A stretch of 34,873 nucleotides of DNA from NCBI GenBank assembly GCA_947467625.1, contig CANIJN010000025.1, positions 1-34,873 of the forward strand, written 5' to 3'. Both the position numbers and the translations under genes were made by a program. Positions 1,095-32,270 of the stretch are shown piece by piece. The stretch is from Opitutia bacterium. GTDB taxonomy: Bacteria; Verrucomicrobiota; Verrucomicrobiia; Opitutales; Opitutaceae. The notes beneath the pieces are model-generated. The model had not been told where the DNA came from. It was given only the letters and a program-made list of their open reading frames with translations, and ran no database searches. Within the stretch, counting starts at the first letter, position 1; every line of letters starts with the position of its first letter.

Positions 1095-2465
<1,371 letters not shown>

Positions 2466-2483
2466 AAGAACGAAATGAGGGGC

Positions 2484-5480
2484 TTAATTCGGTAGGGGCA
2501 CTTGGGCGGTGGTTTGCAGGTAGGCGATGAGGTGGCGGACTTGGTCGTCGGTTAAGGCGGTGAGGAGGCCTTCGGGCATCATACTTACGGGAAGTTGCTC
2601 CTGTTTGGCGATCTCCGAGCGATCAATGCGCGTCTCCTGATCGATCATTCTCACTGTCACCGCGCGTTCGGATTTCTCACTCAACATGCCGTTCAAGACG
2701 CGTCCGTCTTTTAGCGTCAACACGGTCATGAGGTTTTCGGCGGCGACGAAGGCGCTGGGGTCGGCGATATTTTCGATGAGATACCCAATATCGTGGCGGC
2801 CGCTGCCGGTGAGATCGGGGCCGAGCGTGTTGCCCTCGCCGTAGAGTTTGTGGCACGCGGCGCAGACGGCGTCGTAGATGACGCGGCCCTGACGGGCATC
2901 ACCGGTGCGAAGGAACGCGGGGGTGAGCTTCGCTTTGAGCGTGGTGATGAGTTGCTGCTTATCGGCGCTGGATTCGCGGACTTCGCCCCAGACCTCGGCG
3001 AGCTGCTGCGTGAGCGAGGCATCGTGGAAACTCCGGATTTGCCGAGCGAGGACCGGTGTGAGGTCGGTGTGCGGGATCACAATTTTTTCGACGGGGCGCT
3101 CCATTTGATTAAGGAGGATGCGAGCAAACGTCGGGCGCGCCACGAGGACGGCGAGGGCGGCGGGACGCTCGTGCGGAGAGAGGCCTTTGTAGCGGGCGAT
3201 GATGCGGTCGGCCGCGGCAGGATCGTCGAAAGAGGCGAGTCCCTGAATCGCGGCGACACTGAGCGCGGCGTTGCCGATCAGGGATTCGCAGACCTTGCGA
3301 AGGTCGGGAGACTTTGCCTCGATCAGGGTGCGCAGGGCGGCACGGCGACTCTCGGTATTGGCTTGGTTGTCGAGGGCGATGGCCTGCACTTCGGCCAGTG
3401 CCCGGCCGCTGGCAAAGAGGACTTCGAGATCGCGGAGTGATTGCGTCAGCGCGTCGTCCCGGAGTGCAGCGACGCGGGCGGCAAAGGCGTCCCACGCGGC
3501 GGGTTTCTTGGCCTTGCTCCAGCCGCGGAGGGAGGTACTCATGCCGCGGAGAATGTCGGCCGCGAGGCCATCGGACCGGAGAGAGAGGAGCGTATTGAGC
3601 GGTGCAGGGTCTTGGTCGATGTCCTCGGTGACGCGGCGCGCGATGAACTGGCGCACGAGCGGAATCCGACACGTTGATGCGAGGGCGACGAGTTGAGTGG
3701 GCGCGAGACCGCGGATACCTGACCAATACAGGAGCGGCAGATTGTGATCGGTGGCATCTTCGGCGTGCGTGAGCAGGAGTGCAGCGAGTTGGGCGCGGGC
3801 GTCGGGCGCGAGCGCAGGAAGCGTTGACGCGCGGGCGAGGCGGAGGAACGGGCTCGCGGTGTTCTGCGCGGTGGCAGGCGTGGAGGGCACGGCCCAGCGC
3901 TGGAGGTGTTCGTCCGGGCTCGTGCGCATCGCCGAGAGCAGGGGAGCGATGGGCGCGGGAGCGTCGGGTGCGAAGGCGGAGATTTGTTCCAGCGTCCAAT
4001 ACGCGGCCAGTTTTTTGGCTGGGGTGGGCGCGGTGGTGAACTGCTCGCGGAGAAGTGTGGTCAGAGCGGGCAGGCCGTTGTGTCGGCGGGCGCGTTCGCG
4101 GAGTTCCCAGCGCGCCATGCGCACGAGCCACTCGTTGTCGCTGGGCTGGAGGGCGACGAGTTGGGCGTCGGTGAGTCTCGTGAGATCGGTTTCCTGGGGA
4201 CGCGCGGGGTCGCCGTAGGTGATTTTGTAGATACGTCCGGAGGTGCGGTGAACGCCGTCGTTTTCGTGGCATTCTCCGATGTCGCTCCAATCGAGAATGT
4301 AGACGCCGCCATCGGGGCCGGCTTGAATTTCGATGGCTCGGAACCACGGATCATCCGTCCGCATGAAGTCGGGGGCGTGCTTGCCGACGTAGCCGCTGCC
4401 CCGGCGCTCGAGGCGGTCGATATTCACGCGGCGACCGTGGAGATTGGTTGTGAACACTTGGCCACGATACTCGGGCGGGAAGTTCGTGCCTTGGTAAATC
4501 ATCAGGCCGACGTGCGCGTGGCCACCGCCGACACGGGAGGAGGCGGGGGTGACGCCCAGCTTGCGCACGTCGGTCCAGACCTCGCCGCTATCCCAATGGT
4601 AATGGTCGGCGTGCTGGTCGATGAGTTCGTAAATGCGCGGGTAAGGGTCGTCGCCGTGCATCCGCTTGAAGTGCGCTCCTTGGATGCCGTGCCAGAGGTG
4701 GCCGATGACCGTGTTGATGAAGAACATTTCCCCGTGTTGATCCCAATCCATGCCCCACGGGTTCGTCGTGCCGTGACAGTAGGGCTCGTAGATTTTTTGG
4801 GCGGGATGATAGCGCCAGATACCGCCGGCGGTGGGTGAGCGTTGGTCGCGGGGAGTGCCGGGCACGTCCGCCCAACTCGTGCTGCTGATGCCGACGCGAC
4901 CGTAGAGCCAGCCGTCAGGCCCCCACTTGAGACCGTTGGCAAAGGTGTGGCGGCTGGCGGCCTGGGTGCTAAAACCGTCGATGAGGATCTGCGGTGGGCC
5001 GCTGGGTTTGTCGCCGTTGGTGGGAATGAACAGGAGATGCGGTGGACACATTGCGTAGACGCCCCCGAAGCCGCGCTCGATGCTGGTGAGCATTTGGAGA
5101 TCATCGGCGAATACCGTGCGTCGATCGAAACGCCCGTCGTTGTCGGTGTCCTCGAAGATGACGATGCGATCGCGGAGATTGAGGTCGAAGCGTTCCTTGT
5201 TGTCAGAGTAAGTGTAGTTCTCCGCGACCCAGAGACGACCACGCTCGTCCCAGCACATCGCGATGGGGTTCTGCACGTCGGGTTCGGCGGCGAAGAGCGT
5301 GGCTTTGAACCCGGGAGGCAGGTGCATCAATTTCACCAAGTCCGCTGGGGCGGTGAGGGGCGTGTCGGTGATGTGCTGATTATTGGTCGGAGCGGGGAAG
5401 GCGGCGTGAGTCGAGGAGAGCGGGCAAATCTGACCGAGACCGAGGACGAGAGCGGGGAGCCAACGAAAGCAAAGCGACAT
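2484..5480 (-). CDS. PVC-type secreted propeller/HEAT protein with C-terminal CxxCH cytochrome domain
   Basis: This is a protein of about 998 residues starting at the ATG complement of 5478-5480. That start gives a clean signal peptide (MSLCFRWLPALVLGLG to THA-AF); a 34-codon upstream extension is possible but reads as unlike a leader. The N-terminal third looks like a soluble dehydrogenase beta-propeller: LPPGFKATLFAAEPDVQNP, RGRLWVAENYTY, and EDTDNDGRFDRRTVFADDL with an acidic calcium-loop-like run. The middle is helical HEAT-type repeats. The C-terminal domain has one haem motif, C873-A-A-C876-H, followed by LYGEGNTLGPDLTGSG and SMMPEGLL, which may supply the distal methionine. Proteins of this architecture are common in Planctomycetota and Verrucomicrobiota and are thought to oxidise sugars or alcohols, but their substrates are mostly unproven. 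The sulfatase follows it. Confidence 0.88.
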   Translation of the reverse strand: MSLCFRWLPALVLGLGQICPLSSTHAAFPAPTNNQHITDTPLTAPADLVKLMHLPPGFKATLFAAEPDVQNPIAMCWDERGRLWVAENYTYSDNKERFDLNLRDRIVIFEDTDNDGRFDRRTVFADDLQMLTSIERGFGGVYAMCPPHLLFIPTNGDKPSGPPQILIDGFSTQAASRHTFANGLKWGPDGWLYGRVGISSTSWADVPGTPRDQRSPTAGGIWRYHPAQKIYEPYCHGTTNPWGMDWDQHGEMFFINTVIGHLWHGIQGAHFKRMHGDDPYPRIYELIDQHADHYHWDSGEVWTDVRKLGVTPASSRVGGGHAHVGLMIYQGTNFPPEYRGQVFTTNLHGRRVNIDRLERRGSGYVGKHAPDFMRTDDPWFRAIEIQAGPDGGVYILDWSDIGECHENDGVHRTSGRIYKITYGDPARPQETDLTRLTDAQLVALQPSDNEWLVRMARWELRERARRHNGLPALTTLLREQFTTAPTPAKKLAAYWTLEQISAFAPDAPAPIAPLLSAMRTSPDEHLQRWAVPSTPATAQNTASPFLRLARASTLPALAPDARAQLAALLLTHAEDATDHNLPLLYWSGIRGLAPTQLVALASTCRIPLVRQFIARRVTEDIDQDPAPLNTLLSLRSDGLAADILRGMSTSLRGWSKAKKPAAWDAFAARVAALRDDALTQSLRDLEVLFASGRALAEVQAIALDNQANTESRRAALRTLIEAKSPDLRKVCESLIGNAALSVAAIQGLASFDDPAAADRIIARYKGLSPHERPAALAVLVARPTFARILLNQMERPVEKIVIPHTDLTPVLARQIRSFHDASLTQQLAEVWGEVRESSADKQQLITTLKAKLTPAFLRTGDARQGRVIYDAVCAACHKLYGEGNTLGPDLTGSGRHDIGYLIENIADPSAFVAAENLMTVLTLKDGRVLNGMLSEKSERAVTVRMIDQETRIDRSEIAKQEQLPVSMMPEGLLTALTDDQVRHLIAYLQTTAQVPLPN

Positions 5481-5555
5481 GAAAACAAAGCTGACCAAGT
5501 CTCCGGCGAGGTGAAGCGGTAAGTTACTCGCGAAGCGCCCGCTCGCCCGCTTCAG

Positions 5556-5578
5556 CCTGGGCAAATCCGCCTGGGCAC
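5556..5578. repeat. Short direct repeat between divergent genes
   Basis: GCCTGGGCA occurs at 5556-5564 and again at 5570-5578, 14 bases apart start to start. It lies in the 247-base gap between the divergent PVC cytochrome gene (start 5480) and metK (start 5728). Same-side direct repeats at about one and a third helical turns could be a regulator site, but nothing else supports that. Confidence 0.3.
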
Positions 5579-5635
5579 GCATCTCATTTTAAATGACGAG
5601 AATCCCGATCGAGCGGTGAAATGTTTTGGCGGGGA

Positions 5636-5727: not shown

Positions 5728-6900
5728 ATGGCAAAATCATTCGTTTTCTCCTCCGAGTCCGTGGGTGAAGGACATCCTGACAAAGTCGCTGACTTGATCT
5801 CCGACAGCGTGCTCGACGCCTGCCTTGCGCAGGATCGCTCCAGCCGCGTCGCTTGCGAAACCATGGTTAAATCCAACATGGTCATTCTCGCTGGGGAGAT
5901 CACGACGAAAGCGAAGCTCAATTACGAGGCGGTCGTGCGCGCCGCCATTCGGGATATTGGCTATGTGAACAAGGATGACGTGTTTCATGCCGATCAGGTT
6001 TTCATCAATAACTATTTGACGAAGCAGTCTGAGGACATCGCCCAGGGCGTCGATGCGAAGAAAGCCAAGGGGAAGAAGACGGCCGAGCAGGGGGCGGGCG
6101 ATCAAGGGATTATGTTTGGTTACGCCTGCAATGAGACTCCCGAGCTGATGCCAACGCCGATCATGTTTGCGCACCGGCTGGGTCGCGAGCTGACGAAAAT
6201 TCGCAAATCTGGCATCGCGCCTTGGCTGCGCCCGGACGCCAAGTCACAGGTTTCGGTGCGCTATGAAAACGACAAACCCGTCGAGGTCGTCAATGTGGTG
6301 ATCTCCACGCAGCACACCGAAGACGTCGCGCATGCGACGATCGAAAAATATTTGATTGAGCATGTGGTCAAAAAGGTAATCCCAGCCGGGTTGCTCAACA
6401 AAAACACCGAGTATCTCATCAATCCAACTGGCCGGTTTGTGATCGGCGGTCCGCAGGGAGACTCGGGGCTCACCGGTCGTAAGATCATCGTTGATACTTA
6501 TGGTGGCTGGGGCCGCCATGGTGGCGGTGCGTTTTCTGGTAAGGATCCATCGAAGGTTGATCGCTCCGCCGCCTACATGGGCCGCTGGGTGGCCAAGAAT
6601 ATCGTCGCGGCGGGTTTCGCGACGCACGCCGAGATTCAATTTGCCTATGCGATCGGGCATCCCCAGCCGGTTTCGGTACGAGTCGAGACGTTTGGCACTG
6701 CGCCTAAAGGTGTTTCGGACGAGCAAATTACTGATGCGGTCCGCGCGGTTTTCAGTTTCAAACCGGCCGATATCGTGGCCGATCTCAATCTGCTCCGCCC
6801 CATTTATCGTCAGACGACGAACTACGGTCACTTCGGCAAGAAGGGTCTACCGTGGGAGCAAATCAATAAGGTCGCAGCCCTGAAAGCTGCGCTCAAGTAA
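5728..6900 (+). CDS. metK: S-adenosylmethionine synthetase
   Basis: This 390-residue enzyme makes S-adenosylmethionine from methionine and ATP, releasing phosphate and diphosphate. Signature motifs are intact: [20 protein letters not shown] near the N terminus, [32 protein letters not shown] and [19 protein letters not shown]. It ends in a normal C-terminal region ([17 protein letters not shown]). The ATG at 5728 ([11 protein letters not shown]) is preferred over an upstream in-frame ATG because homologues begin there and the extra residues are not conserved-looking. ahcY follows after 48 bases with no visible terminator between them, so the two probably share a transcript. That transcript would link synthesis of the methyl donor to recycling of its product. 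Confidence 0.97.
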
Positions 6901-6948
6901 GGCGAAACGTCCGCTCTCCTCCGCATCCTCAATTTAAAGTTTTCCATC

Positions 6949-8385
6949 ATGGCCAAAGCCTCCAAACCTTCGCGCAAATCACCTGCGCCCGATTACCACG
7001 TCAAAGATATTACGCTAGCCGATTGGGGCCGCAAAGAGATCGCGGTCGCCGAGCATGAAATGCCCGGCCTCGTCTCGGTCCGCAAAAAATTCGGACCGAA
7101 GCAGCCGCTCGCGGGTGTGCGCATCACGGGCTCGTTGCACATGACGATTCAGACGGCGGTGCTGATCGAGACCCTCAAGGAACTCGGCGCCGATGTTCGC
7201 TGGGCTTCGTGTAATATTTTCTCCACCCAAGACCACGCTGCGGCTGCCATCGCGGCGACCGGCACGCCGGTCTTCGCTTGGAAGGGCGAGACGCTGGAAG
7301 AATACTGGGATCTGACCCTCAAGGCCATTTCGTTTCCGGGAAACAAAGGCCCGCAATTGGTGGTAGACGACGGCGGTGACGTGACGCTGCTCATCCACAA
7401 GGGCTGTGAATTGGAGGAGGGCAGCGATTGGGTGAACACCCCGTCGACGTCGCATGAAGAGCAAGTCATCAAGAACATCTTGAAGCGCGTGCATAAAGAG
7501 GATCCGAAGCGCTGGACCAACATCGCGAAGGAATGGCGCGGGGTTTCAGAGGAGACGACCACCGGCGTTCACCGCCTTTATCAGATGCTCGAGAAGGGCA
7601 AACTCCGCGTGCCCGCGATCAATGTGAATGACTCCGTCACCAAGTCGAAATTTGACAACCTTTACGGTTGCCGCGAATCGCTCGCGGATGGTCTGAAGCG
7701 CGCCACGGACGTCATGATTGCCGGTAAGGTCGCGTGTGTTTGCGGCTACGGTGATGTCGGTAAGGGTTCTGCGTTTTCCCTCAAAGGCTTTGGCGCCCGT
7801 GTTATTGTGACGGAGATCGATCCCATCAATGCGCTGCAGGCCGCCATGGAAGGTTTCGAGGTCAACACGATCGAGTCCACGTTTGGCAAGGCGGATATCT
7901 ATGTGACCACGACCGGTAACAAAGACATCATCACGCTCGAGCATATGCGGAAGATGAAGGATCAGGCGATCGTCTGTAACATCGGTCACTTCGATAATGA
8001 GATTCAAATCGACCGTCTGAATACGTCCGATGCGAAGCGCGTGAAGATCAAGCCGCAATACGACCTCTACACATTTCCGACTGGCAACAGCATCTACATG
8101 TTGGCCGAAGGCCGCTTGGTAAATCTCGGCTGCGCGACGGGCCATCCGTCGTTCGTGATGTCTGCCAGTTTTACGAACCAAACGCTGGCTCAGCTGGACC
8201 TGTGGAAAAACAAAGATGCCTATGCGATCGGCGTCTATCGTCTGCCGAAGCTTCTCGATGAAGAGGTGGCCCGGTTGCATCTCGATAAGATCGGTGCGAA
8301 ATTGACTAAGCTGACTAAAGATCAGGCGGCTTACCTCGGGGTGCCGGCCGGCGGGCCGTACAAGCCTGATCACTACCGCTACTAA
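6949..8385 (+). CDS. ahcY: Adenosylhomocysteinase (SAH hydrolase)
   Basis: This 478-residue cytosolic enzyme splits S-adenosylhomocysteine into adenosine and homocysteine, relieving product inhibition of methyltransferases. It has the substrate-domain motif [14 protein letters not shown], the Rossmann NAD-binding motif [29 protein letters not shown], and the C-terminal KPDHYRY that completes the NAD site of the neighbouring subunit. The length and the insertion around residues 160-200 ([20 protein letters not shown]) match the longer bacterial form. It lies directly behind metK and ends at a strong rho-independent terminator. Confidence 0.97.
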
Positions 8386-20410: not shown

Positions 20411-20464
20411 GATTGGAGGCTCGACGGGGCCGTGCGCGATTCAGCAGACTCCGAGCTTACCTCC

Positions 20465-22027
20465 ATGAAATCACTCCTGCTTTGCTTCCTTGCTATTGCC
20501 GCGATGGCGCGCGCTGCCAGCACGCCAAAGACGCCGAACATCGTCTTTATTTTCTCCGACGATCATGCCTATCAGGCGATCAGCGCCTACGGTGATGCGC
20601 GCAAACTACTCGACACTCCGAACATCGACCGCATCGCGAAGCAGGGGGTGCGCTTCGACCGGTGCCTCGTGACGAATTCGATTTGCGGTCCAGCTCGCGC
20701 GACGATTCTCACGGGAAAATACAGTCACCTGAACGGATTTCCCAATAACTCGAATTCCACCTTCGACGGCGCGCAGCAGACCTTTCCCAAGCTCCTGCAA
20801 AAAGCCGGCTACCAGACGGCCATCGTTGGAAAATGGCACCTGGGCTCCGATCCGACCGGCTTTGATTTCTGGCAGATTCTCCCGGGCCAGGGCGTTTACT
20901 ATAATCCGCCGATGATCAAAATGGGCGAACGGGTGACGATGCCTGGCTACGTGACGGATATCATCGGAGACGTGTCGCTCGAATGGTTGAAGAATCGGGA
21001 CAAAACGAAACCCTTTATGCTCATGTGCCAACACAAGGCACCGCACCGGGAATGGGCGCCGCCGCTGCGCCACCTCGGCTTCGATAAAGACCGTGTTTAC
21101 GCCGAGCCCGCGACCTTGTTCGATGATTACTCCGGTCGCGGTATCGCCGTGCGCGATCAAGATATGACGATTGCGAAGACCTTTACCGACCGCGACGCGA
21201 AGTTGGCGCTGCCGGCGGGGATTTCGCCCGAACAACAAAAAGTGTGGGATGCTTACTACGAGCCCCGCAACGCCACGTTCCGCGCCGCGAATCTCACGGG
21301 CAAAGCGCTCGTGAGCTGGCGCTACCAGCGCTACATGCATGACTACCTCGCGACGGTAAAAGCTGTGGATGAAAATGTCGGCCGCGTGCTGGACTATCTG
21401 GACAAAGAGGGCCTCGCGGAAAACACGATCGTCGTTTACGCGAGCGACCAAGGTTTTTACTTGGGTGAGCACGGTTGGTTCGACAAGCGCTGGATCTTCG
21501 AGGAATCCGTGCGCACGCCGTTGCTCGTGCGCTGGCCGGGGGTGACGAAGCCCGGTACCGCCACCAAGGCGCTCGTCTCGAATCTCGATTTCGGCGAGAC
21601 CTTTCTCGACGTGGCGGGCGTTCCGGTGCCGGCCGACATGCAGGGTCGCAGCTTTCAGCCACTGTTGCGCGGGGAGCAGCCGGCCGATTGGCGCACGGCT
21701 TTCTACTACCAGTATTTCGAGTATCCCGCGCCGCACCGGGTGCGTCCCCACTACGGCGTTATCACCGATCGCTACAAACTCGTGCACTTCGAGGGTATGG
21801 GAGAAGCGTATTGGGAACTCTACGACCGCGAGAAAGATCCGAATGAAATGAAGAGTGTCTACGCCGATGCCGCGTATGCGGCGACCGTCATCCAGCTAAA
21901 GAAAGAACTCGCGCAACTGCGGCAGGAGTTGAAGGTGCCGGCGGACATTCCGGCGCGGTTCTACGGTAATCAGGGCGCGGGCGGTGAAGGTGGGAAGAAG
22001 AAGAATAGAAATGGGAAACAGCCATAG
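20465..22027 (+). CDS. Secreted sulfatase (S1 type, CGPAR)
   Basis: This 520-residue protein starts at the ATG giving a signal peptide ([19 protein letters not shown]). The mature part has [17 protein letters not shown] for metal binding, the formylglycine motif C74-G-P76-A-R78 followed by [41 protein letters not shown] and [17 protein letters not shown]. It needs a formylglycine-generating enzyme, which is not in the window. It would remove sulfate from a polysaccharide or other ester outside the inner membrane. The sequence is very like the common PVC and Bacteroidota polysaccharide sulfatases. The tail is basic ([10 protein letters not shown]). It opens the block that includes a second sulfatase and a TonB-dependent receptor. 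Confidence 0.94.
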
Positions 22028-22559: not shown

Positions 22560-24011
22560 ATGAACTCTAATCGCCGGTTCGCCTTTTCCCTCCTCGTTTA
22601 CGCTCTGACTGCGTTATTCGCGGCCGCCAAACCCAACGTCCTCTTCATCGCTGTCGACGACATGAACAACGACCTCGGCTGCTACGGTACGCCGCTCGTG
22701 AAGTCGCCGAATATCGACAAATTGGCTGCACGCGGCGTCCGCTTCGAGCGTGCCTATTGTCAGTTTCCGCTCTGTAGTCCGAGTCGCTCGTCGATCATGA
22801 CCGGACTGCGCCCTGATACGACCAAGGTGTTCAATCTCCAGTATCACTTTCGCCAAGGGTTGCCGGACGTCGTCACCATCCCGCAGCTCTTTCGTCAAAA
22901 CGGCTATTACGCCGCGCGGGTTGGAAAAATCTACCACTACGGCAATCCGGGTGACATCGGCACGAGCGGCCTCGACGACCCTGCTTCGTGGCAGGAAGTC
23001 GTCAATCCGGCGGGTGTCGACAAGACCGCGCTCGAGCCGGACATCACGAATTTCACGCCGCAGCGCGGGCTCGGCTCGGCGATGTCGTTTCTGAGCGATG
23101 CCAAAGGCCGCGACGAAGACCACACTGATGGCAAGGTCGCGACCGAAGCGATTCGGCTCCTCGAGAAACACCAGGGCGAGCCCTTCTTTCTCGCGGTGGG
23201 TTTCTACAAACCGCACACGCCCTACGTCGCGCCCAAAAAATATTTCGACCTCTATCCATTGGAGAAAATCGACATCCCCTCGCTCCCGGCCGGCTACGAG
23301 AAGACGGTGCCGACGGGTGCACTATCCTCGACAAAACCGTGGCCGAATTTTGGCACGAAACTTGATCAGGCACGCCTGACTAAGCAGGCGTATTACGCGG
23401 CGATTTCCTTCGTCGATGCGCAGATCGGCCGCGTGGTCGATGCGCTGGATCGCCTCGGCCTGCGGGAGAACACGATTATCGTTTTTTGGAGCGACCACGG
23501 CTACTCACTCGGCACCCACGGACTCTGGATGAAACAAAATTTATTCGAAGACGCCGCCCGCGTGCCGATGATCTTTGCCGGTCCGGGGATCAAAGCCGGC
23601 ACGCCGTCACCGCGCATCGTGGAGTTTGTGGATGTCTATCCCACGCTCGCGGACCTCGCGGGCTTGAAGGCGCCGGCGAATCTCGCGGGTGCGAGTCTGC
23701 GCCCGCTCCTCGTAAAACCCGATGCCGCGTGGAATCGTCCCGCCTTCACGCAAGTTGAGCGCGGTGGTTTCCCTGGACGGAGTGTGCGCACGCCGCGCTG
23801 GCGTTACACGGAGTGGGACGGTGGCAAGCAGGGCTCGGAACTTTACGACCATGACGCTGATCCGAAGGAGATGAAAAATCTCGCGGCCAATCCGGCGCAG
23901 GCGGCTGTCGTCGCGGAACTCAAGGTGCTCGTGGCGAAAAACTGGCCGGAGCGTGTCGAGGGTGGCCAGGCCGAAGCTGGGGCGAAGAAAAAACGAGCGA
24001 AGGCCAAATAG
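22560..24011 (+). CDS. Secreted sulfatase (iduronate-2-sulfatase-like)
   Basis: This 483-residue protein has a signal peptide (about residues 1-23) and then VLFIAVDDMNNDLGCYG, the metal-binding start of iduronate-2-sulfatase-like enzymes. The formylglycine motif is C72-S-P74-S-R76 followed by SSIMTGLRPDT. Later segments include GFYKPHTPYVAPKKYFD, IVFWSDHGYSLGTHGLW and a C-terminal ELYDHDADPKEMKNL. Such enzymes remove 2-O-sulfate from uronic acids in glycosaminoglycan-like or algal polymers. The fine specificity is inferred only from the N-terminal pattern. It ends in a lysine-rich tail, and a hairpin (24020-24049) follows before the receptor gene. Confidence 0.93.
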   Translation: MNSNRRFAFSLLVYALTALFAAAKPNVLFIAVDDMNNDLGCYGTPLVKSPNIDKLAARGVRFERAYCQFPLCSPSRSSIMTGLRPDTTKVFNLQYHFRQGLPDVVTIPQLFRQNGYYAARVGKIYHYGNPGDIGTSGLDDPASWQEVVNPAGVDKTALEPDITNFTPQRGLGSAMSFLSDAKGRDEDHTDGKVATEAIRLLEKHQGEPFFLAVGFYKPHTPYVAPKKYFDLYPLEKIDIPSLPAGYEKTVPTGALSSTKPWPNFGTKLDQARLTKQAYYAAISFVDAQIGRVVDALDRLGLRENTIIVFWSDHGYSLGTHGLWMKQNLFEDAARVPMIFAGPGIKAGTPSPRIVEFVDVYPTLADLAGLKAPANLAGASLRPLLVKPDAAWNRPAFTQVERGGFPGRSVRTPRWRYTEWDGGKQGSELYDHDADPKEMKNLAANPAQAAVVAELKVLVAKNWPERVEGGQAEAGAKKKRAKAK

Positions 24012-24094: not shown

Positions 24095-27028
24095 ATGGTG
24101 CAAAATCTACTCGTTAACGTTTATCTCCCTTGGGCATCGCGCGGTCTCGCTCGCGTGGCGACCCTTGGAGTCATGTTTTCATCATTACCGCTGGCCGCGC
24201 AGACCGTCGTGCCGTCATCCAAGCCGGCCGTGGAGAAAGCGGTTGAGTTGTCACCGTTTGAGGTTCGCTCGGACGATGACGTCGGCTATCAGGCGATGAA
24301 CACGACGTCGGGCAGCCGACTGGGCACGAATCTCAAGGACACCGCTGCATCGATCTCACCTTTTACCGCCGAGTTTCTCTCCGACATCGCGGCGACGAAT
24401 GTGAACGAAATGTTGGCCTACGCGGCCAACGCCGAACTGAACGCGGGCGATGCCGAAGGCGCGGGCTTCAATAATCCCCGCGATTTCAGCTCCGCTGGCG
24501 GTGAGCCATTCCGCATCCGCGGAATCCCCGGAGGGGTGTCAACGGACTACGTTGAAAACTCCGCACCGCAGGATCTCTACAACATTGAGCGCGCCGAGGT
24601 CGCGAGCGGTCCGAATTCGATTCTCTTCGGTTCGGGCGACGCGGGCGGACTGGTTTCGCTTTCGGGCAAGAAGGCGAATGTCGCCCGCAACAAGTATTCC
24701 GCGAGTGCGCAGTTTGGTTCGTGGGCTTACCAGCGCTACACCACCGATCTGAATCAAGTGCTCGTGCGCAAGACGCTGGCGTTGCGTCTCAACGCGCTCT
24801 CCAGCGACGCGAAAGCGTGGCGCCGCTATGAGTTCAACGACGCGAAACGCTATAGTGGTTCGCTGACCTACAAGCCGTTCAAGCGAACGACCCTCACGGC
24901 CAATTACGAAGACGGTATTACGAAGAGCAGCGTCGGACTGAAGTGGAACACGACGGATCAGATCTCGCGTTGGATCGCGGCGGGCCGGCCGATCTCCGAT
25001 GCGACGGCGGCGGACACGACGCGCGGGTTCTCGAGCCAGGGCGCGAACCAGCGCTTCACGTATTTCACGCAGGATGGTTTCGTGTCGAATCAGCGGAACG
25101 AACTGCGCTCGAACATTGCCCCCGGCACGGCCGACACCTTGCTCGCGCCGACGATCTTTCCCTACGATGTGAATTGGGCGGGGCCGCAGACGAAGCTCAC
25201 GCGTGACTTTAATAATTACCAGTTTGCGCTCGAGCACCGGTTCTCGGATGCGCTTACGGTGCAAGGGATCTATTTGAAAAACGAGACGAAGGCGAAGGCG
25301 CGTTCGTTTGTCTACAACGGCAATACGATGGATTTCCTCGGTGACCCGAATCTTACGATCCCAGCGCAGAGCGGGACGGGCACGATCGCCAATCCGCGGG
25401 CCGGCCAGCTTTACCTTGAGACGAATCAATTCGGTGACGCCACCGAAACAGAGAACGCGGTGAAGCGCGTGACCGTCGCCTATGAGCTCAAACTGGGGAA
25501 GTGGTTCGGCGACCACCGCGTCGCCGCGATGGGTGAGAACGCGGTGCAGCACAAACACACGCAATCGCGCCGCGAGATTCTAGTCGATCCGCTCAACCGG
25601 CCGCTGGCCAACGTCGGCGCGCCGGAGAATGCGCAGAATCTCCTCTATCGCCGGACCTATGTGCGGGAGGGCGATTTTTCCACCTACGCGCACACGGGAC
25701 TCTATACGCCGCTCGCACCGTTCACCTACAACGGACTCACGGTGAGCTCGCGCCACATCAACACAGGCGAGCTTAGCTCCGTGAAGGACATCGACAGTCT
25801 GATGTTCGCCGCGCAGAGCGCGTGGCTGAACGGCCGCGTCACGACCACGCTCGGCTACCGTCGTGACAACATTGTGTATCTCGACACGACCTCAGGTCGC
25901 GTGACCGACCCCGCCGATCCGCGCGTCACCTCTGGCCAAATGCTCCTCAACGAGGTCGTCGCGCTGCCGGGCTACAACCAGAACACCTACATGGCGGACA
26001 CGTTGACGGCGGGCGGGGTGTGGCATCTGCACAAGCGTTTTTCGGTTTTCTATAACCAATCCACGAACCACGGTGCGCCGCGCTTCGACCGGCGCATTTT
26101 ACCGACGGGTGCGATTCCTGAGCCGCCCGAAGGGCAAGGACGCGACCTGGGCGTGATGATCGATCTCTTCGGCGACGATCGGTATTTTGCACGCGTGACT
26201 TATTTTGAGACGAAGCAGGTCGGCGACGCCGCGGTTTCGCCGAGTGGCGCGGTCACGAATGCAGCCGCGCTCGGTCGCTCGCAAACGCTCGCGGTAAACG
26301 CCGCGTTGGTGGCTGCCGGCAAGATGACGCAGGCGCAGTCGGATGCGGCGGGATTCAACTGGAACGCGGCGATCATCGACACGGTCAGCAAGGGCGTCGA
26401 GTTGGAGCTAATTGCGAACCCGACGCGGAACTGGACGATCCGGGCGAATTACTCGCACTCGGAGCGCGACCGGGAAAATTTCTTCGCGGAAGGCTATACG
26501 TTTTTCGCGGTGAAGTTCGCCGAATGGCGCGCGCTGGCCGCCGGCAACTCGGCGCTGCTCGCGACCGTCGAGACCAACATCGCGGCCATTCAGGCCAATG
26601 AACTTGACGGCCGCGCGGTGGCGCAGGAGCAAGGATTTGGGTCCATTCCGCACAAGGCGACACTCACGACGCGTTACAAATTTGATGGCAGCAGTCCGTT
26701 GGGCGACCGGTTGAAAGGTGCGTTTGTCGGCGCGGCGGTGCGTTACCAGTCGCAGGTGTTCAGTCAGACGGATACCCGGGCGGCAAGCGCTGGTGGCACG
26801 GGCAAGGATTACTTTGCGGAAGGTACGCTGTTGACGGACGCGTTTGTGGGCTACCGCTTTCGTCTGCCGTGGAGGCAGCTGCCGATGAGCGTGCAGCTGA
26901 ATGGGCGCAATATCTTCAACTCCGACCTCGTGAGTCTCGCGCGCTACAATGCTGATTTCAGCGGCGCCCGGCGTATTTACCTCCGCGAACCGCGCTCGCT
27001 TCGGCTGACGGTATCAGTGGATTATTGA
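24095..27028 (+). CDS. TonB-dependent outer-membrane receptor
   Basis: This 977-residue outer-membrane protein has a hydrophobic leader (about residues 20-36, SSLPLAAQT). It then has VELSPFEVRSDDDVGYQAMN (50-69), the entry to the plug in Opitutaceae-type receptors. The plug (about 65-195) contains EPFRIRGIPGGVSTDY and IERAEVASGPNSILFGSGDAG. The rest is a beta-barrel with alternating pattern, ending in RIYLREPRSLRLTVSVDY with a terminal aromatic. It would import a large ligand, such as an oligosaccharide released by sulfatases, with energy from TonB-ExbBD encoded elsewhere. No carboxypeptidase-like N-terminal extension is visible. The leader start is uncertain by some codons. The next gene begins seven bases after its stop. 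Confidence 0.93.
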   Translation: MVQNLLVNVYLPWASRGLARVATLGVMFSSLPLAAQTVVPSSKPAVEKAVELSPFEVRSDDDVGYQAMNTTSGSRLGTNLKDTAASISPFTAEFLSDIAATNVNEMLAYAANAELNAGDAEGAGFNNPRDFSSAGGEPFRIRGIPGGVSTDYVENSAPQDLYNIERAEVASGPNSILFGSGDAGGLVSLSGKKANVARNKYSASAQFGSWAYQRYTTDLNQVLVRKTLALRLNALSSDAKAWRRYEFNDAKRYSGSLTYKPFKRTTLTANYEDGITKSSVGLKWNTTDQISRWIAAGRPISDATAADTTRGFSSQGANQRFTYFTQDGFVSNQRNELRSNIAPGTADTLLAPTIFPYDVNWAGPQTKLTRDFNNYQFALEHRFSDALTVQGIYLKNETKAKARSFVYNGNTMDFLGDPNLTIPAQSGTGTIANPRAGQLYLETNQFGDATETENAVKRVTVAYELKLGKWFGDHRVAAMGENAVQHKHTQSRREILVDPLNRPLANVGAPENAQNLLYRRTYVREGDFSTYAHTGLYTPLAPFTYNGLTVSSRHINTGELSSVKDIDSLMFAAQSAWLNGRVTTTLGYRRDNIVYLDTTSGRVTDPADPRVTSGQMLLNEVVALPGYNQNTYMADTLTAGGVWHLHKRFSVFYNQSTNHGAPRFDRRILPTGAIPEPPEGQGRDLGVMIDLFGDDRYFARVTYFETKQVGDAAVSPSGAVTNAAALGRSQTLAVNAALVAAGKMTQAQSDAAGFNWNAAIIDTVSKGVELELIANPTRNWTIRANYSHSERDRENFFAEGYTFFAVKFAEWRALAAGNSALLATVETNIAAIQANELDGRAVAQEQGFGSIPHKATLTTRYKFDGSSPLGDRLKGAFVGAAVRYQSQVFSQTDTRAASAGGTGKDYFAEGTLLTDAFVGYRFRLPWRQLPMSVQLNGRNIFNSDLVSLARYNADFSGARRIYLREPRSLRLTVSVDY

Positions 27029-27035
27029 GGCTACC

Positions 27036-29165
27036 ATGCACACCCTCACTCGTCGCTCTCTTTTGAAGTCGGCCGCAGTCGCCAGTGCGGCGTGGGCGGT
27101 TCCCCCTTTGCGTGCCGCTGAATCGGTCGCAGCGGTCACCCACTATCTCGCGGCGCACGCCCGGCCCGACGGCGGTTACGCTTTTGCGGACCAGCAGCGC
27201 TCGCACCTGACGCCGACTTACGCGGTGATCGGTGCGTATCGCTTGGTTGGACAGATGCCGCCGAACCGAGTCGCGCTCACGGACTATGTGCGCACGCACC
27301 ATCCGCGGGAACTCAAGAAACTCGAGCAAGAACGCCGGATTTTTGAGTTTCAACAGGTGCAGTCGCTCGTGTGGCTCGGCGATCCGGCGGGGGAGTTTCA
27401 CGAGCGGTTGAAGACGTGGACGGCGCCGTTGCCGTATTTGAAACAGTACGAACAACACGGATACCCGATCTTCCAGTCGGAGCTCGGGCTCGTGCAATGC
27501 CGGGCGCTGCTGGGCATGGATATCGAGCCGTTGAAGCCGGCGTTTTCGGATTACGTGACGGCGCGACGGCGTGCGAACGGGAGTTATAATAATACTCCGA
27601 CGGTCGACGGTGGTGACGGCCACGCGATGAATACGCTGTGGGGTCTACAGGCGGCGCGCGTGCTCGGATTGCCTGCGGATAAGAAGGCGGAGACGATCGC
27701 GTGGCTGCGGGCGTGCCAGGTGCCGAGCGGCGGGTTTACGTATCAGCCGAGTCCGGACTTTGGTGGCGTGGACGACGTGGCCTACACACGGGCGGCGTTG
27801 AAGGGGCTCAAGCTGCTCGGTGGCGAGCCGATGAACCGTGAGGCGTGTCTCGCGTGGTTGCGCTCGCTCGCGAATGCGGACGGCGGATTTGCTGATCGAC
27901 CGGGTTGGCTGAGCAATCCGCTCGCGACCTATTACGCGCTCGATGCGCTCGACGCGTTGGGTGAGGTGAAGACCGTGGCGACGATGGCGCGGCGGACGGC
28001 GCCGGCGAAGCTCGTGCTGCCAAGAAATTTACAGGTATGGTCGATCCAGATTGAATCACATGGCACGGGTAGTCCGGCTGAGGCGGTGGCGCTGGCGGCG
28101 GGGTTGCGCATCGATTTGTGGGGAGCGAAAAACGCGAAACCCGAGTGGCTGGCGCGGGTGCGGGCGCTGGCCGCGGAGCAGAAAGTGCCGGTGCAGTTTT
28201 TCCGGGCCAACGAAGAATACGGCACGTGGACCGATGTGCCCGGACTCGGGACTTACAGCCACATGAGCGATGTAATCGCGCCGGCCCACACGGATATCGG
28301 GCCGCCGCTCGGCACGCGGGGTGAGGCGTCGCCGCCGGTGTCTTGGCTGGAATTTCGCCAGCGGCGCATCGAGCCGTTGCAGGGCGGGCAGGGCCGGATG
28401 GTGTGGCAGTTTGGTGAAAACGAGGAATTGGTGCGGGCGCTCCTCGACGATTCGGTGGGGCGCGGCGGATTTGCGGCGATCAGCACGTTTCATTTCGGCA
28501 ATCCCGACTTCATGAACTCCGAGCCGTTTTTGCAGCGGTGGCGCGGGCTGATTCCGTATATCGGATTACAGGATGCGCACGGCACCGAGCCGTGGTGGTT
28601 TGCCGATCAGACGACTGGCTATCGCACGCTCTTTCTGGCGACGGAGCCGACGTGGGGAGGCTGGCTGAATGCGTTACAGCAGAACTGGGTCGTCGCCGTG
28701 CGGCACGATGACATGAGCCGCGGCGAGACGTGGATGCACAGCGGCTCGGACGAAGTCCGCGATTTCGTACAGGCGCGCGAAAGCGATTGGCGCTGGTGGA
28801 GTGGTGACCAAGCCAAGGCGTGTCGGCCGCTGGTATCGCTCGTGGCGCTGCGACCCGAGGATGAGTTTGAGGTGGGACGGCCGGCGCAGGGGATCGCGTT
28901 ACGGGTGCGCTGTGCTTGGAAGAATACGCCCCAAGGAATGCCGCAGACACCGCTTGCGGAGTTTGTGAAGTTACGGGTAGGCGGTGCGGACGTGCTGCCG
29001 ACACTCGTGGAGCGGAAGCGGCCGAACGGGAACGGGCTCGCGGATCGGTATCACCTCTACGTGTTGCCAGAGGGCGCGGATGGGAAAACGGGCACGCGCA
29101 CCGCAACCGTGGTGGCGAGGGAGATTGTGACGAAGCGCGAGGTAACGCAGACGGTGCGGTTTTAG
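27036..29165 (+). CDS. Tat-exported alpha/alpha-toroid (prenyltransferase-like) protein with C-terminal extension
   Basis: This 709-residue protein has a Tat signal (T5-R6-R7-S-L-L-K followed by an alanine-rich stretch to RAAES). Residues about 30-315 show helix pairs with glycine-rich turns like those of prenyltransferase/squalene-cyclase toroids: DGGYAF (45-50), NGSYNNTP (181-188), SGGFTYQPSPDFGGVDDVAYT (split over 231-251) and ADGGFAD (281-287). From about 330 to 600 there is a different domain with SIQIESHGTG, TFHFGNPDFM, DAHGTEPWWFADQTTGY and AVRHDDMSRGE, reminiscent of PHP/amidohydrolase barrels. The final 110 residues are beta-rich and sandwich-like. It is exported folded, so a cofactor or complex partner is possible. 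It begins seven bases after the receptor gene and is probably co-translated with it. Function unknown. Confidence 0.8.
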   Translation: MHTLTRRSLLKSAAVASAAWAVPPLRAAESVAAVTHYLAAHARPDGGYAFADQQRSHLTPTYAVIGAYRLVGQMPPNRVALTDYVRTHHPRELKKLEQERRIFEFQQVQSLVWLGDPAGEFHERLKTWTAPLPYLKQYEQHGYPIFQSELGLVQCRALLGMDIEPLKPAFSDYVTARRRANGSYNNTPTVDGGDGHAMNTLWGLQAARVLGLPADKKAETIAWLRACQVPSGGFTYQPSPDFGGVDDVAYTRAALKGLKLLGGEPMNREACLAWLRSLANADGGFADRPGWLSNPLATYYALDALDALGEVKTVATMARRTAPAKLVLPRNLQVWSIQIESHGTGSPAEAVALAAGLRIDLWGAKNAKPEWLARVRALAAEQKVPVQFFRANEEYGTWTDVPGLGTYSHMSDVIAPAHTDIGPPLGTRGEASPPVSWLEFRQRRIEPLQGGQGRMVWQFGENEELVRALLDDSVGRGGFAAISTFHFGNPDFMNSEPFLQRWRGLIPYIGLQDAHGTEPWWFADQTTGYRTLFLATEPTWGGWLNALQQNWVVAVRHDDMSRGETWMHSGSDEVRDFVQARESDWRWWSGDQAKACRPLVSLVALRPEDEFEVGRPAQGIALRVRCAWKNTPQGMPQTPLAEFVKLRVGGADVLPTLVERKRPNGNGLADRYHLYVLPEGADGKTGTRTATVVAREIVTKREVTQTVRF

Positions 29166-29237: not shown

Positions 29238-32200
29238 CTATAACGTTTCAATAAACGTCAGCAGGTCGGCCATGTCTTGCAGGGACAGGCCGGCTTCGAG
29301 GCCTTCGGGCATCAGGCTTTTTCCGGAGGAACTGCTGCCGCGGACGTTCGCGCGAGCGAGCACGACTTCGGCGCCACCCATGATTTTGAGCGAGAGGCCG
29401 GTCGCGTCGTCGCGGGTAATTATGCCGGCGTAGGCATTGCCGTCTTTCGTGGTGACATCGTAGGCGATGTACTGGGGCGCGACCTCCTTGTGCGGTTCGA
29501 GGATCGCGGTGAGCAGGCCATCGCGGCCGCGTGTTTTTACCGTGATGAGATCGGGCCCGACCGCGATCCCTCCGACGCTCCCGGCTTGGTGGCAGACGAT
29601 GCAGCGTGTTTGAAACTGGATACGTCCGCGTGAGGCGTCGCCGGCGGTGGTGACGGCGGGTTGAAACGTGATCGTGACCTCGGCGCGAGATGGCGGAATC
29701 ACGGAGGCGAGGGCGGTCTTCGCGAGCGCGGTGACGGAGGGGCTTTTGTGGTGCGTGAGGCTTTGGACCTGCGTGGCGGGCAACTCGGTGGGCTTGATCG
29801 TGCCGGCCTTGATGGCGTGGAGGAGGGCGGTCGCGCGATCTTCGCGGGCGACGAGGGTGGCGAGGGCGGTCTCCTTGGTGGCGGGTAGGTAGTGGGGCCA
29901 CGCGCGGATCAGCGCGGCGCTGACCTCGGGGGTGGTGTGTTGCGCGAGGGACTTAATCGCGGCGGACTGGATCGTGGCGGGTTGGCCGGGGGCGAGACAG
30001 GCCATGAGCGGCTCGCGCGATTGAGCGTACGTCGCGACATCGAGGAGTTCGATGGCCTCGAGGCGGGCGGGTGTCGGGGACGCGGAATCGGCGACGGTTG
30101 TGGCGGCGCGGGTGAAGAGGGCGGTGAGTTTGTGCGCGGTGTCGGCTTTGGCGATGGTGGTGCTGGCCCGACGCAGACCGTCACCGAGGGCGCGTAACCA
30201 GAGCGGGCTGGTGCCGGGTTGGGCGACGAAATCAATGAGCGCGGCACGATCGGCGGCGGGCGCGGAGGCGGCCTGAATTTCGATGAGCTTCGCGACGAAC
30301 GCTGCTGATTTTTTCGCAGTGGCGAGGTCACGCGTGAGCGCGGGGAAGAGCACGCTGTTCACGAGGGCGGGCGGGCCGCTGAGGAGGGCGGTGGAAATCC
30401 ACGAGTCGGAGAAATCACGGGCGGCCAGTTGCGCGTAGGCGGTGGCGAGGTCCGGCGAGGATTGGACGGTGAAGGCGAGTTGGTAGCGCACGCGGTCGTC
30501 GGGGTCGTTGACGAGGGCGGAGAGTTGAGCGGCGAGTGCAGGGGAAAGGGAACTGCGGCCGATGAGTTTTTCGGCGTAGACGATCCCGTGTTCGCGGAGA
30601 CGGGCATCGCGGTCGGCGAGCGTGGCTAGCACGGATGCTTCGGTGAGTGCGGCGAGACCATCGAGGACGCCGAGGGCGTGATGTTTCGCGAGCGGCGACT
30701 TCGAATCGCGGATGAGTGTAGCGAGCAGGGGAACCGCGGATTTGTCCTGACGTTCGTAGAGGAGACGCGCGGCGGTGTCGCGGTGCCAGCCGTTCGGGTG
30801 CGCGAGGGTGGCGACGAGTTCGGCGGTCGTGGCGGAGCCGAGGGCGACGCGGGTGCGGCGGTGCCAGCCGGTCGTCGTGGGGACGACACGATAGATGCGA
30901 CCGCGGTCGTTGCCGTTGTTGAGGTCGAGGTGCTGCTTGATCTCCTCAGGGAGGCTCCACGGGTGCTCGATGATTTCGCGATACATGTCGCAAACATGGA
31001 GGGTGCCGTCGGGGGCGTTGGCAAAATTCACGACGCGGACCCACGTGTCGGTGCTGGCGGCGAACTCGAGGTTTTGTTCGTCGGCGGGACGGCGGCCGAT
31101 GAGGCTCACGCCGTCGGGGTAGATTTTTTTGCGATGGATCAGTTGGCCGCCGGCATCGCCGCTGAAGGTGTTATTGACGAAGTCGTCGCCGTAGGCATCG
31201 CCACGGAAAACGGTCGTGCCCGTGGCGCCGGTGAAATAGCCGCTGACGCGACCACCGCCCTCGACGGCGCCCTTGACGACGCCACTGATCCGCCAGCGCG
31301 TGCGCACGATGCGCCAGGGTTCGTCAGGGCTGATCCGATACACCTCGGCGGCACCCCCATCGGCGGCGATGCTCTGGCGGGTGGGCGGCAGGGTGAAGAA
31401 AGGGTTGCGCGCGGCGTAACGATCATCGTAAACGAAAAACTGGAGGTGGTCGGAATTCGAGCAGGCGAATTTGCGGCCGTAGTTGTCGAAGCTCATGCCG
31501 TATTGTGCGCCGCCGCTCTCGAAGCCGAATTCGTAGGTACGCGGGTCGAACCAAAAATCGCGCCCGGCGATTTCCTCGGCGGGCTGGCCGAGACGTTTCG
31601 GACTGGAGATTTTGCCGCGGTTGCCGGGACCGCCCTGGACGTGGATGCGGTTGTCCTGACTCCACTGGAGACTGTTGAGCATGGCTTGGACGTTGAGCGC
31701 TTTGAGGCCGGTGCCGAAGCCGGTGAACGCGATTTCGCGGCCGTCGGCGCGGCCGTCGCCGTCTTTATCTTCGAAACGCCAGATGTTGGGCGAGGCCGCG
31801 ACGAAGAGGCCGCCGTTGGCCCAGATGAGGCCGGTGGGCAACGGGAGATCGTCGGCGAAGACGGTACTGGTTTCGTAGAAGCCGTCGCCATCTTTGTCCT
31901 CGAGCATTGAAATGCGGCCGAGGTGGGGTGTGCGGTCGCGTTCCTCCGAGTAGTCGATCATTTCGCAGACGAACATCCGGCCGTTTTCGTCGAACGAGAT
32001 CGCGATGGGATCGCGGACCTGGGGTTCGTGGGTGACGAACTCGATTTTGAAGCCGGGCTTCACTTTCCATGTGGCGACGGCGTCTTTCGGCGCGACGGCG
32101 GGGTAGCGCGGAAGTTCTTTGGCGGGATCAAAGGCGGTGCTGGCGCGGGAGTTCGCGGCGGGCGCGGTGGCGTTGGGATTGCGCGTGGTGAGGCCGTCGG

Positions 32201-32270
32201 GGGCTGCAGGGGCGTTGGCGGCAAAAGCACAAGAAGCGGCGGAGAGGGAGGCGAGGAGGAATAGCTTCAT
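29238..32270 (-). CDS. PVC-type secreted propeller/HEAT protein with CxxCH cytochrome domain
   Basis: This 1010-residue protein has the same architecture as the one at 2484-5480 but diverges strongly from it. A short signal peptide (MKLFLLASLSAASCAFA-AN) leads into a propeller domain with KVKPGFKIEFVTHEPQVRDP, NGRMFVCEMIDYSEERD, two acidic loops (EDKDGDGFYETS, EDKDGDGRADGRE) and CDMYREIIEHPWS. HEAT-type helical repeats occupy about 480-870. The C terminus has one haem motif, C890-I-V-C893-H, followed by GIAVGPDL and SLMPEGLEAGL. It is probably a periplasmic oxidoreductase passing electrons to the respiratory chain. It converges on the Tat toroid gene and lies at the edge of the sulfatase/receptor block. 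The exact substrate is unknown. Confidence 0.88.
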   Translation of the reverse strand: MKLFLLASLSAASCAFAANAPAAPDGLTTRNPNATAPAANSRASTAFDPAKELPRYPAVAPKDAVATWKVKPGFKIEFVTHEPQVRDPIAISFDENGRMFVCEMIDYSEERDRTPHLGRISMLEDKDGDGFYETSTVFADDLPLPTGLIWANGGLFVAASPNIWRFEDKDGDGRADGREIAFTGFGTGLKALNVQAMLNSLQWSQDNRIHVQGGPGNRGKISSPKRLGQPAEEIAGRDFWFDPRTYEFGFESGGAQYGMSFDNYGRKFACSNSDHLQFFVYDDRYAARNPFFTLPPTRQSIAADGGAAEVYRISPDEPWRIVRTRWRISGVVKGAVEGGGRVSGYFTGATGTTVFRGDAYGDDFVNNTFSGDAGGQLIHRKKIYPDGVSLIGRRPADEQNLEFAASTDTWVRVVNFANAPDGTLHVCDMYREIIEHPWSLPEEIKQHLDLNNGNDRGRIYRVVPTTTGWHRRTRVALGSATTAELVATLAHPNGWHRDTAARLLYERQDKSAVPLLATLIRDSKSPLAKHHALGVLDGLAALTEASVLATLADRDARLREHGIVYAEKLIGRSSLSPALAAQLSALVNDPDDRVRYQLAFTVQSSPDLATAYAQLAARDFSDSWISTALLSGPPALVNSVLFPALTRDLATAKKSAAFVAKLIEIQAASAPAADRAALIDFVAQPGTSPLWLRALGDGLRRASTTIAKADTAHKLTALFTRAATTVADSASPTPARLEAIELLDVATYAQSREPLMACLAPGQPATIQSAAIKSLAQHTTPEVSAALIRAWPHYLPATKETALATLVAREDRATALLHAIKAGTIKPTELPATQVQSLTHHKSPSVTALAKTALASVIPPSRAEVTITFQPAVTTAGDASRGRIQFQTRCIVCHQAGSVGGIAVGPDLITVKTRGRDGLLTAILEPHKEVAPQYIAYDVTTKDGNAYAGIITRDDATGLSLKIMGGAEVVLARANVRGSSSSGKSLMPEGLEAGLSLQDMADLLTFIETL

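Follow-up and report, generated by a model that had tools for sequence, protein, structure and literature searches.

A toroid-PHP protein encoded beside a TonB-dependent receptor and sulfatases in Opitutaceae

The gene, its product and its neighbours

The window analysed here is a stretch of 34,873 nucleotides from an Opitutia bacterium (contig CANIJN010000025.1), and its forward strand carries an open reading frame (27036..29165, ATG to TGA) that encodes 709 residues. The product, termed here the toroid-PHP protein, is composed of an alpha/alpha toroid, a domain with the fold of the polymerase and histidinol phosphatase (PHP) superfamily and a C-terminal beta-sandwich. An earlier sequence-only reading had proposed this three-part build; each part was tested and borne out, and the architecture is well supported by predicted models and profile matches. 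Conservation was judged from 19 aligned sequences, relatives being 55-95% identical.

The protein starts with a putative twin-arginine signal (residues 1-28; 27036..27119, forward strand), in which the motif TRRSLLK is followed by a hydrophobic stretch, as in Tat substrates. The profile match to TAT_signal is weak (0.015, and 5.5e-5 for the best relative). The arginines R6 and R7 are invariant (19/19) and a TatC gene was found in the source genome. The Tat signal read from the sequence alone thus stands, and export via Tat, probably to the periplasm, can be inferred.

The ATG lies 7 bp downstream of the stop codon of a gene for a TonB-dependent receptor (24095..27028, forward strand; Plug domain at 1e-10), the immediate neighbour already recognised in the first reading, and GAGG stands immediately 5' of the ATG. 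This spacing together with the GAGG suggests that receptor and toroid-PHP gene are probably co-transcribed. Further upstream on the same strand are two sulfatase genes, both with the C-x-P-x-R formylglycine motif. Near 9 other loci there is an ortholog of the nearer one (22560..24011, CSPSR), at least 78% identical, and near 11 other loci one of the farther (20432..22027, CGPAR), at least 73% identical. The nearest solved relative of the latter is an N-acetylglucosamine-6-sulfatase, and the nearest solved relatives of the two sulfatases include ones named for sulfated sugars. Downstream, a PVC-type heme-binding CxxCH protein is encoded convergently (29238..32270, reverse strand; TIGR02604 9.1e-112) and occupies the same position in same-genus loci. 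It is one of two DUF7133-like / PVC-type heme-binding proteins in the window (the other at 2484-5582), both near sulfatases.

About 23 loci of this family were found, nearly all in Opitutaceae. Nineteen came from species-representative genomes, mostly Opitutaceae, and one each from whole-genome scans of two further genomes (G015 and G534). The C-terminal half was clearly matched in only 3 genomes out of 387 for the phylum and 4 out of 384 for the class, and no relative was found in viral contigs or plasmids. The family is narrow in distribution. In one genome (G005; L009, 1501-3240) only the tail of the gene (residues 625-706) is left and runs into a shortened receptor gene, which reflects either a deletion or an assembly fault. 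In another (G004; L017 and L007) the gene and the adjoining receptor are both broken by frame breaks and a stop, the locus being either in decay or affected by sequencing error.

The neighbourhood was compared over 23 loci, including the window, the remnant L009, L117 and L118. A receptor ortholog (60-98% identity) adjoins the gene or lies one sulfatase away in 19 of them, so that the neighbourhood suggested by the first reading proved to be conserved; L012, L023, L026 and L118 do not belong to this set, the last two being the most diverged. In a set of 57 relatives receptor and toroid-PHP gene co-occur; G001 alone has the receptor without the gene, and there the contig breaks off two bases past the receptor match. 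In one subgroup (L117 and L025) the order is receptor, sulfatase, toroid-PHP gene and MFS transporter; the transporter of L117 has sub-threshold similarity to GPH sugar symporters. LacI regulators are encoded near the cluster in L117 and L019. Among the neighbours identified, which are a part of all, no glycoside hydrolase or lyase adjoins the toroid-PHP gene. With its receptor, its sulfatases and, in one subgroup, a transporter and LacI regulator, the predicted gene set looks like a glycan-uptake cluster.

Several other genes near these loci deserve mention. In L117 (G015) the gene for a CehA/McbA-type PHP protein (2185-4884) directly precedes the receptor gene on the opposite strand, about 4.4 kb away from the toroid-PHP gene. 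DUF6282 proteins are encoded near the cluster in L117 (17045-18085, beside a LacI regulator) and L025 (10344-11240). In L118, where no receptor is nearby, the gene is followed by one for a neutral/alkaline ceramidase-like protein (6519-8108; PF04734).

A prenyltransferase-type toroid with an altered zinc site

Residues 30-315 (27123..27980, forward strand) match Pfam Prenyltrans (PF00432) at 2.8e-14, with 53.7 bits against a cut-off of 26.5, and this is the sole Prenyltrans match in the genome. The best structural match of the AlphaFold model is the beta subunit of RabGGTase (3hxc_B; Z 25.8, 2.6 A over 260 residues). Profile score and structure place the domain in the prenyltransferase/squalene cyclase toroid superfamily, and the toroid expected from the sequence was thus recovered by structure prediction and fold search. 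The first reading had left it between terpene cyclase and prenyltransferase; it is closer to a protein prenyltransferase beta subunit than to a terpene cyclase, and has lost zinc ligands of the former. Three of the GG-aromatic turns then described are present (DGGYAF at 45-50, SGGFTYQP at 231-238 and ADGGFAD at 281-287), but residues 181-188 read NGSYNNTP and hold no GG turn. The pattern GG[FYW] occurs five times in the protein, three of them within the toroid, a count that 3 of 20,000 shuffled versions of its sequence attained. Weak toroid matches at phylum level were mostly squalene-hopene-cyclase-like or other toroid proteins that have no C-terminal half of this kind.

In RabGGTase the zinc is bound by a triad of Asp, Cys and His. 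In the repeat that corresponds structurally to this site, the Asp-x-Cys pair corresponds to D247-V-A249 (27774..27782, forward strand) and the His to A297 (27924..27926, forward strand). The Asp is kept, position 249 is Ala in most sequences and Val in 3 of 19, and Ala is invariant at position 297. Since Cys and His of the triad are both replaced by Ala, the toroid is no working prenyltransferase and prenylation is not expected. The DxDD motif of class II terpene cyclases and DDxxD are absent from the toroid. Prenyltransferase or cyclase activity, for which the motifs are lost, was consequently rejected as the function of this domain. Its many invariant charged residues include K94, K95, E97, R177-R179, D194, D282 and D287.

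The PHP-fold domain and its candidate metal site

The C-terminal half consists of the PHP-fold domain (residues about 332-596; 28029..28823, forward strand) and the beta-sandwich (residues 597-709; 28824..29162, forward strand), which resembles Ig-like folds at Z about 7. Sequence searches of Pfam, NCBIfam and the PDB with residues 324-709 returned no significant match, and none of the 19 members matched NF038032 at its curated cut-off. In the full-length model the PHP part had low confidence, and the domain modelled by itself came out better. The best of five AlphaFold models of the C-terminal half reached pLDDT 79.8 and pTM 0.83; confidence ranged from 79.8 to 48.6, and residues 487-494 were poorly modelled. 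The first two thirds of this model matched BVU_3505 (3e38_B; Z 14.0, 4.1 A, 214 residues) and TM0559 (2anu_C; Z 13.0, 2.9 A, 181 residues), as well as the PHP domains of EndoQ, RNase AM and DNA polymerase III. Of the top 22 entries in the structural comparison, nearly all were PHP proteins (Z 14.0 to 7.8), and the next class was Ig-like, covering the tail only, at Z about 7.5. Foldseek alone returned no match for this model at E 0.001 or better, and without realignment it ranked Ig-like matches to the tail first. The barrel fold of the PHP superfamily is thus present in a model of moderate confidence, in line with the PHP-like region first read from the sequence.

Profile comparison points the same way. 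With hhalign the domain aligned to CehA/McbA-type PHP proteins at a probability of 71% (P 3.8e-5), to small PHP proteins at 59% (P 9.5e-5) and to both sets combined at 89% (P 2.6e-6), the probability varying with the template set between 15.6 and 88.7%. Controls (reversed, sulfatase, receptor and toroid) gave 0.9% or less; reversed-versus-reversed rows are no controls and were left out. In a genome scan with HMMER, the C-terminal profile also weakly matched the DAHG motif of a separate PHP protein in L046. Conservation is highest in the PHP domain, where 40% of the columns are invariant, compared to 30% in the toroid and 18% in the tail.

Metal-binding PHP domains use nine ligands in the order H, H, D/H, H, E, H, C/H, D/N, H (PMC3666897). 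We assigned the register by hand against the BVU_3505 sequence; the DxH pair alone was aligned by tools, as hhalign pairs QDAHG with the DAH motif of small PHP proteins and HMMER places it likewise. In this hand register the nine positions are E340, H342, none, N366, E394, H409, F459 (or Q458), D513 and H515; apart from E340, these residues do not vary among the 19 sequences. The HxH motif (ligands 1 and 2) would thus be E340-S-H342 (28053..28061), with Glu in 18 of 19 sequences and His in all, while ligand 5, E394 (28215..28217), ligand 6, H409 (28260..28262), and the DxH motif D513-A-H515 (28572..28580, ligands 8 and 9) are invariant; all are encoded on the forward strand. Five canonical ligands are therefore kept and a sixth position holds Glu. 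Four of the nine are altered: position 1 is Glu, 3 is absent, 4 is Asn and 7 is Phe or Gln. N366 is preceded by an invariant lysine, K365, where PHP proteins have the Asp of the DH motif. The conserved metal site that was looked for is thus present in part, but it is incomplete against the nine ligands of a canonical metal-dependent PHP hydrolase, and the putative site would probably hold one or two metals instead of three.

The His- and Asp-rich stretches singled out in the first reading (TFHFGNPDFM at 484-493, DAHGTEPWWF at 513-522 and AVRHDDMSRGE at 554-564) are all present, and every one of the 19 sequences has H486, D513, H515, R556 and D558. H486 was considered as the His of the HP motif and dropped; strand order and hhalign place it on the next strand. 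In L118, the most diverged relative, every candidate PHP ligand is kept, but H196 of the toroid is not.

Proposed function and relation to known systems

The combination of folds and the siting beside receptor and sulfatases in many lake bacteria suggest that the protein is probably an uncharacterised enzyme in the digestion of sulfated sugar polymers. In the reading that we favour, with a probability of roughly one half, it would be a PHP-type hydrolase of the periplasm whose toroid holds the substrate, and it would belong to a TonB/sulfatase system that handles a sulfated glycan or glycoconjugate. Judged from the gene neighbours, the receptor would bring in the sulfated compound and the sulfatases would strip its sulfate. 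Fold and conserved residues point to the PHP-fold domain as the catalytic part, which may bind metal at a reduced site of E340, H342, E394, H409, D513 and H515 and might break a bond of the ester type in the periplasm. The toroid, having lost prenyltransferase chemistry, would serve as a substrate-holding domain, the beta-sandwich may pack or orient the substrate, and a transporter would then carry the product into the cell. The link to sulfated glycans comes from the neighbouring genes. As the first reading suggested, the protein may also carry a cofactor and share a ligand with the receptor.

Alternatively, both domains may lack catalytic activity, in which case the protein would serve receptor and sulfatases in the periplasm as a binding partner or chaperone. 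The PHP domain of E. coli Pol III, a structural one, has five of its nine ligands altered and is inactive (PMC3666897), and a dead PHP domain is therefore a real rival. The loss of the toroid zinc site, the four altered PHP ligands and K365 at the place of the DH-motif Asp all fit such a role. However, five canonical ligands and E340 are kept in nearly all relatives, within the most conserved part of the protein, and we consider a dead protein possible but considerably less probable. It is unlikely that the active site resides in the toroid, which would then act enzymatically on glycans or lipids in a cavity that differs from the prenyltransferase one, with the PHP domain in a secondary role. 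Many charged toroid residues are invariant, which would fit such an enzyme, but the toroid shows no known enzyme motif such as DxDD or DDxxD, and in L118 it is the toroid loop around H196 that changes and not the PHP residues.

We regard it as very improbable that the neighbourhood is incidental, with adjacency due only to shared ancestry in genomes rich in receptors and sulfatases. The source genome does contain 147 first-look receptor candidates and most loci belong to one family, but the receptor ortholog (60-98% identity) precedes the gene in some lineages but follows it in others, so that the pairing has survived rearrangement. That the protein works as an exported protein prenyltransferase or terpene cyclase, for which fold and repeats similar to RabGGTase beta would speak, is hardly credible with two of three zinc ligands replaced by Ala and neither DxDD nor DDxxD, and prenyl diphosphates are cytosolic.

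The periplasmic hydrolase reading can be extended: the toroid might be a prenyltransferase barrel repurposed as an extracytoplasmic clamp that grips a sulfated glycan or glycolipid and passes it to the fused PHP hydrolase, whose metal site would be arranged in a new way. We offer this as a tentative idea that is rather doubtful; if true, it would represent an undescribed enzyme class in sulfated-glycan breakdown. The protein suggests in any case that a prenyltransferase-type barrel is used outside its known chemistry. Little is known about the enzymes that act together with the many sulfatases of freshwater Verrucomicrobia (PMC5615132), and the conserved unit of receptor, sulfatase and toroid-PHP gene is a concrete candidate for a missing step, with residues and genes to test. 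In the literature searched, which was limited in scope, the combination of toroid and PHP domain, the altered metal site and this setting were not found. The protein is a new combination of known parts and no new kind of system.

Compared with RabGGTase beta (PDB 3hxc, 1dce; PF00432), the toroid is alike in fold (Z 25.8) and repeat pattern; unlike it, the toroid-PHP protein has D247, A249 and A297 in place of the triad, is predicted to be exported, is fused to a PHP domain and has no alpha subunit partner in sight. With BVU_3505 (PDB 3e38) and TM0559 (PDB 2anu) it has in common the barrel (Z 14.0 and 13.0) and the second His of HxH, the Glu, the His and the DxH positions. It differs in the first His of HxH (Glu here), in DH (Lys-Asn) and HP (Phe-Gly), and by sequence no PDB entry matches. 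In the CehA/McbA metallohydrolases (NF038032), too, a beta-rich stretch comes after the PHP domain (hhalign 71%), but the ligand set is different here, a toroid precedes, and the protein is below detection by the NCBIfam model. In freshwater Verrucomicrobia, sulfated-polysaccharide clusters with sulfatases and planctomycete-type cytochromes have been described (PMC5615132). Unlike those clusters, the loci described here contain the toroid-PHP protein and no identified adjoining glycoside hydrolase or lyase; they have in common sulfatases beside PVC-type heme proteins, with TonB receptors in the same genomes.
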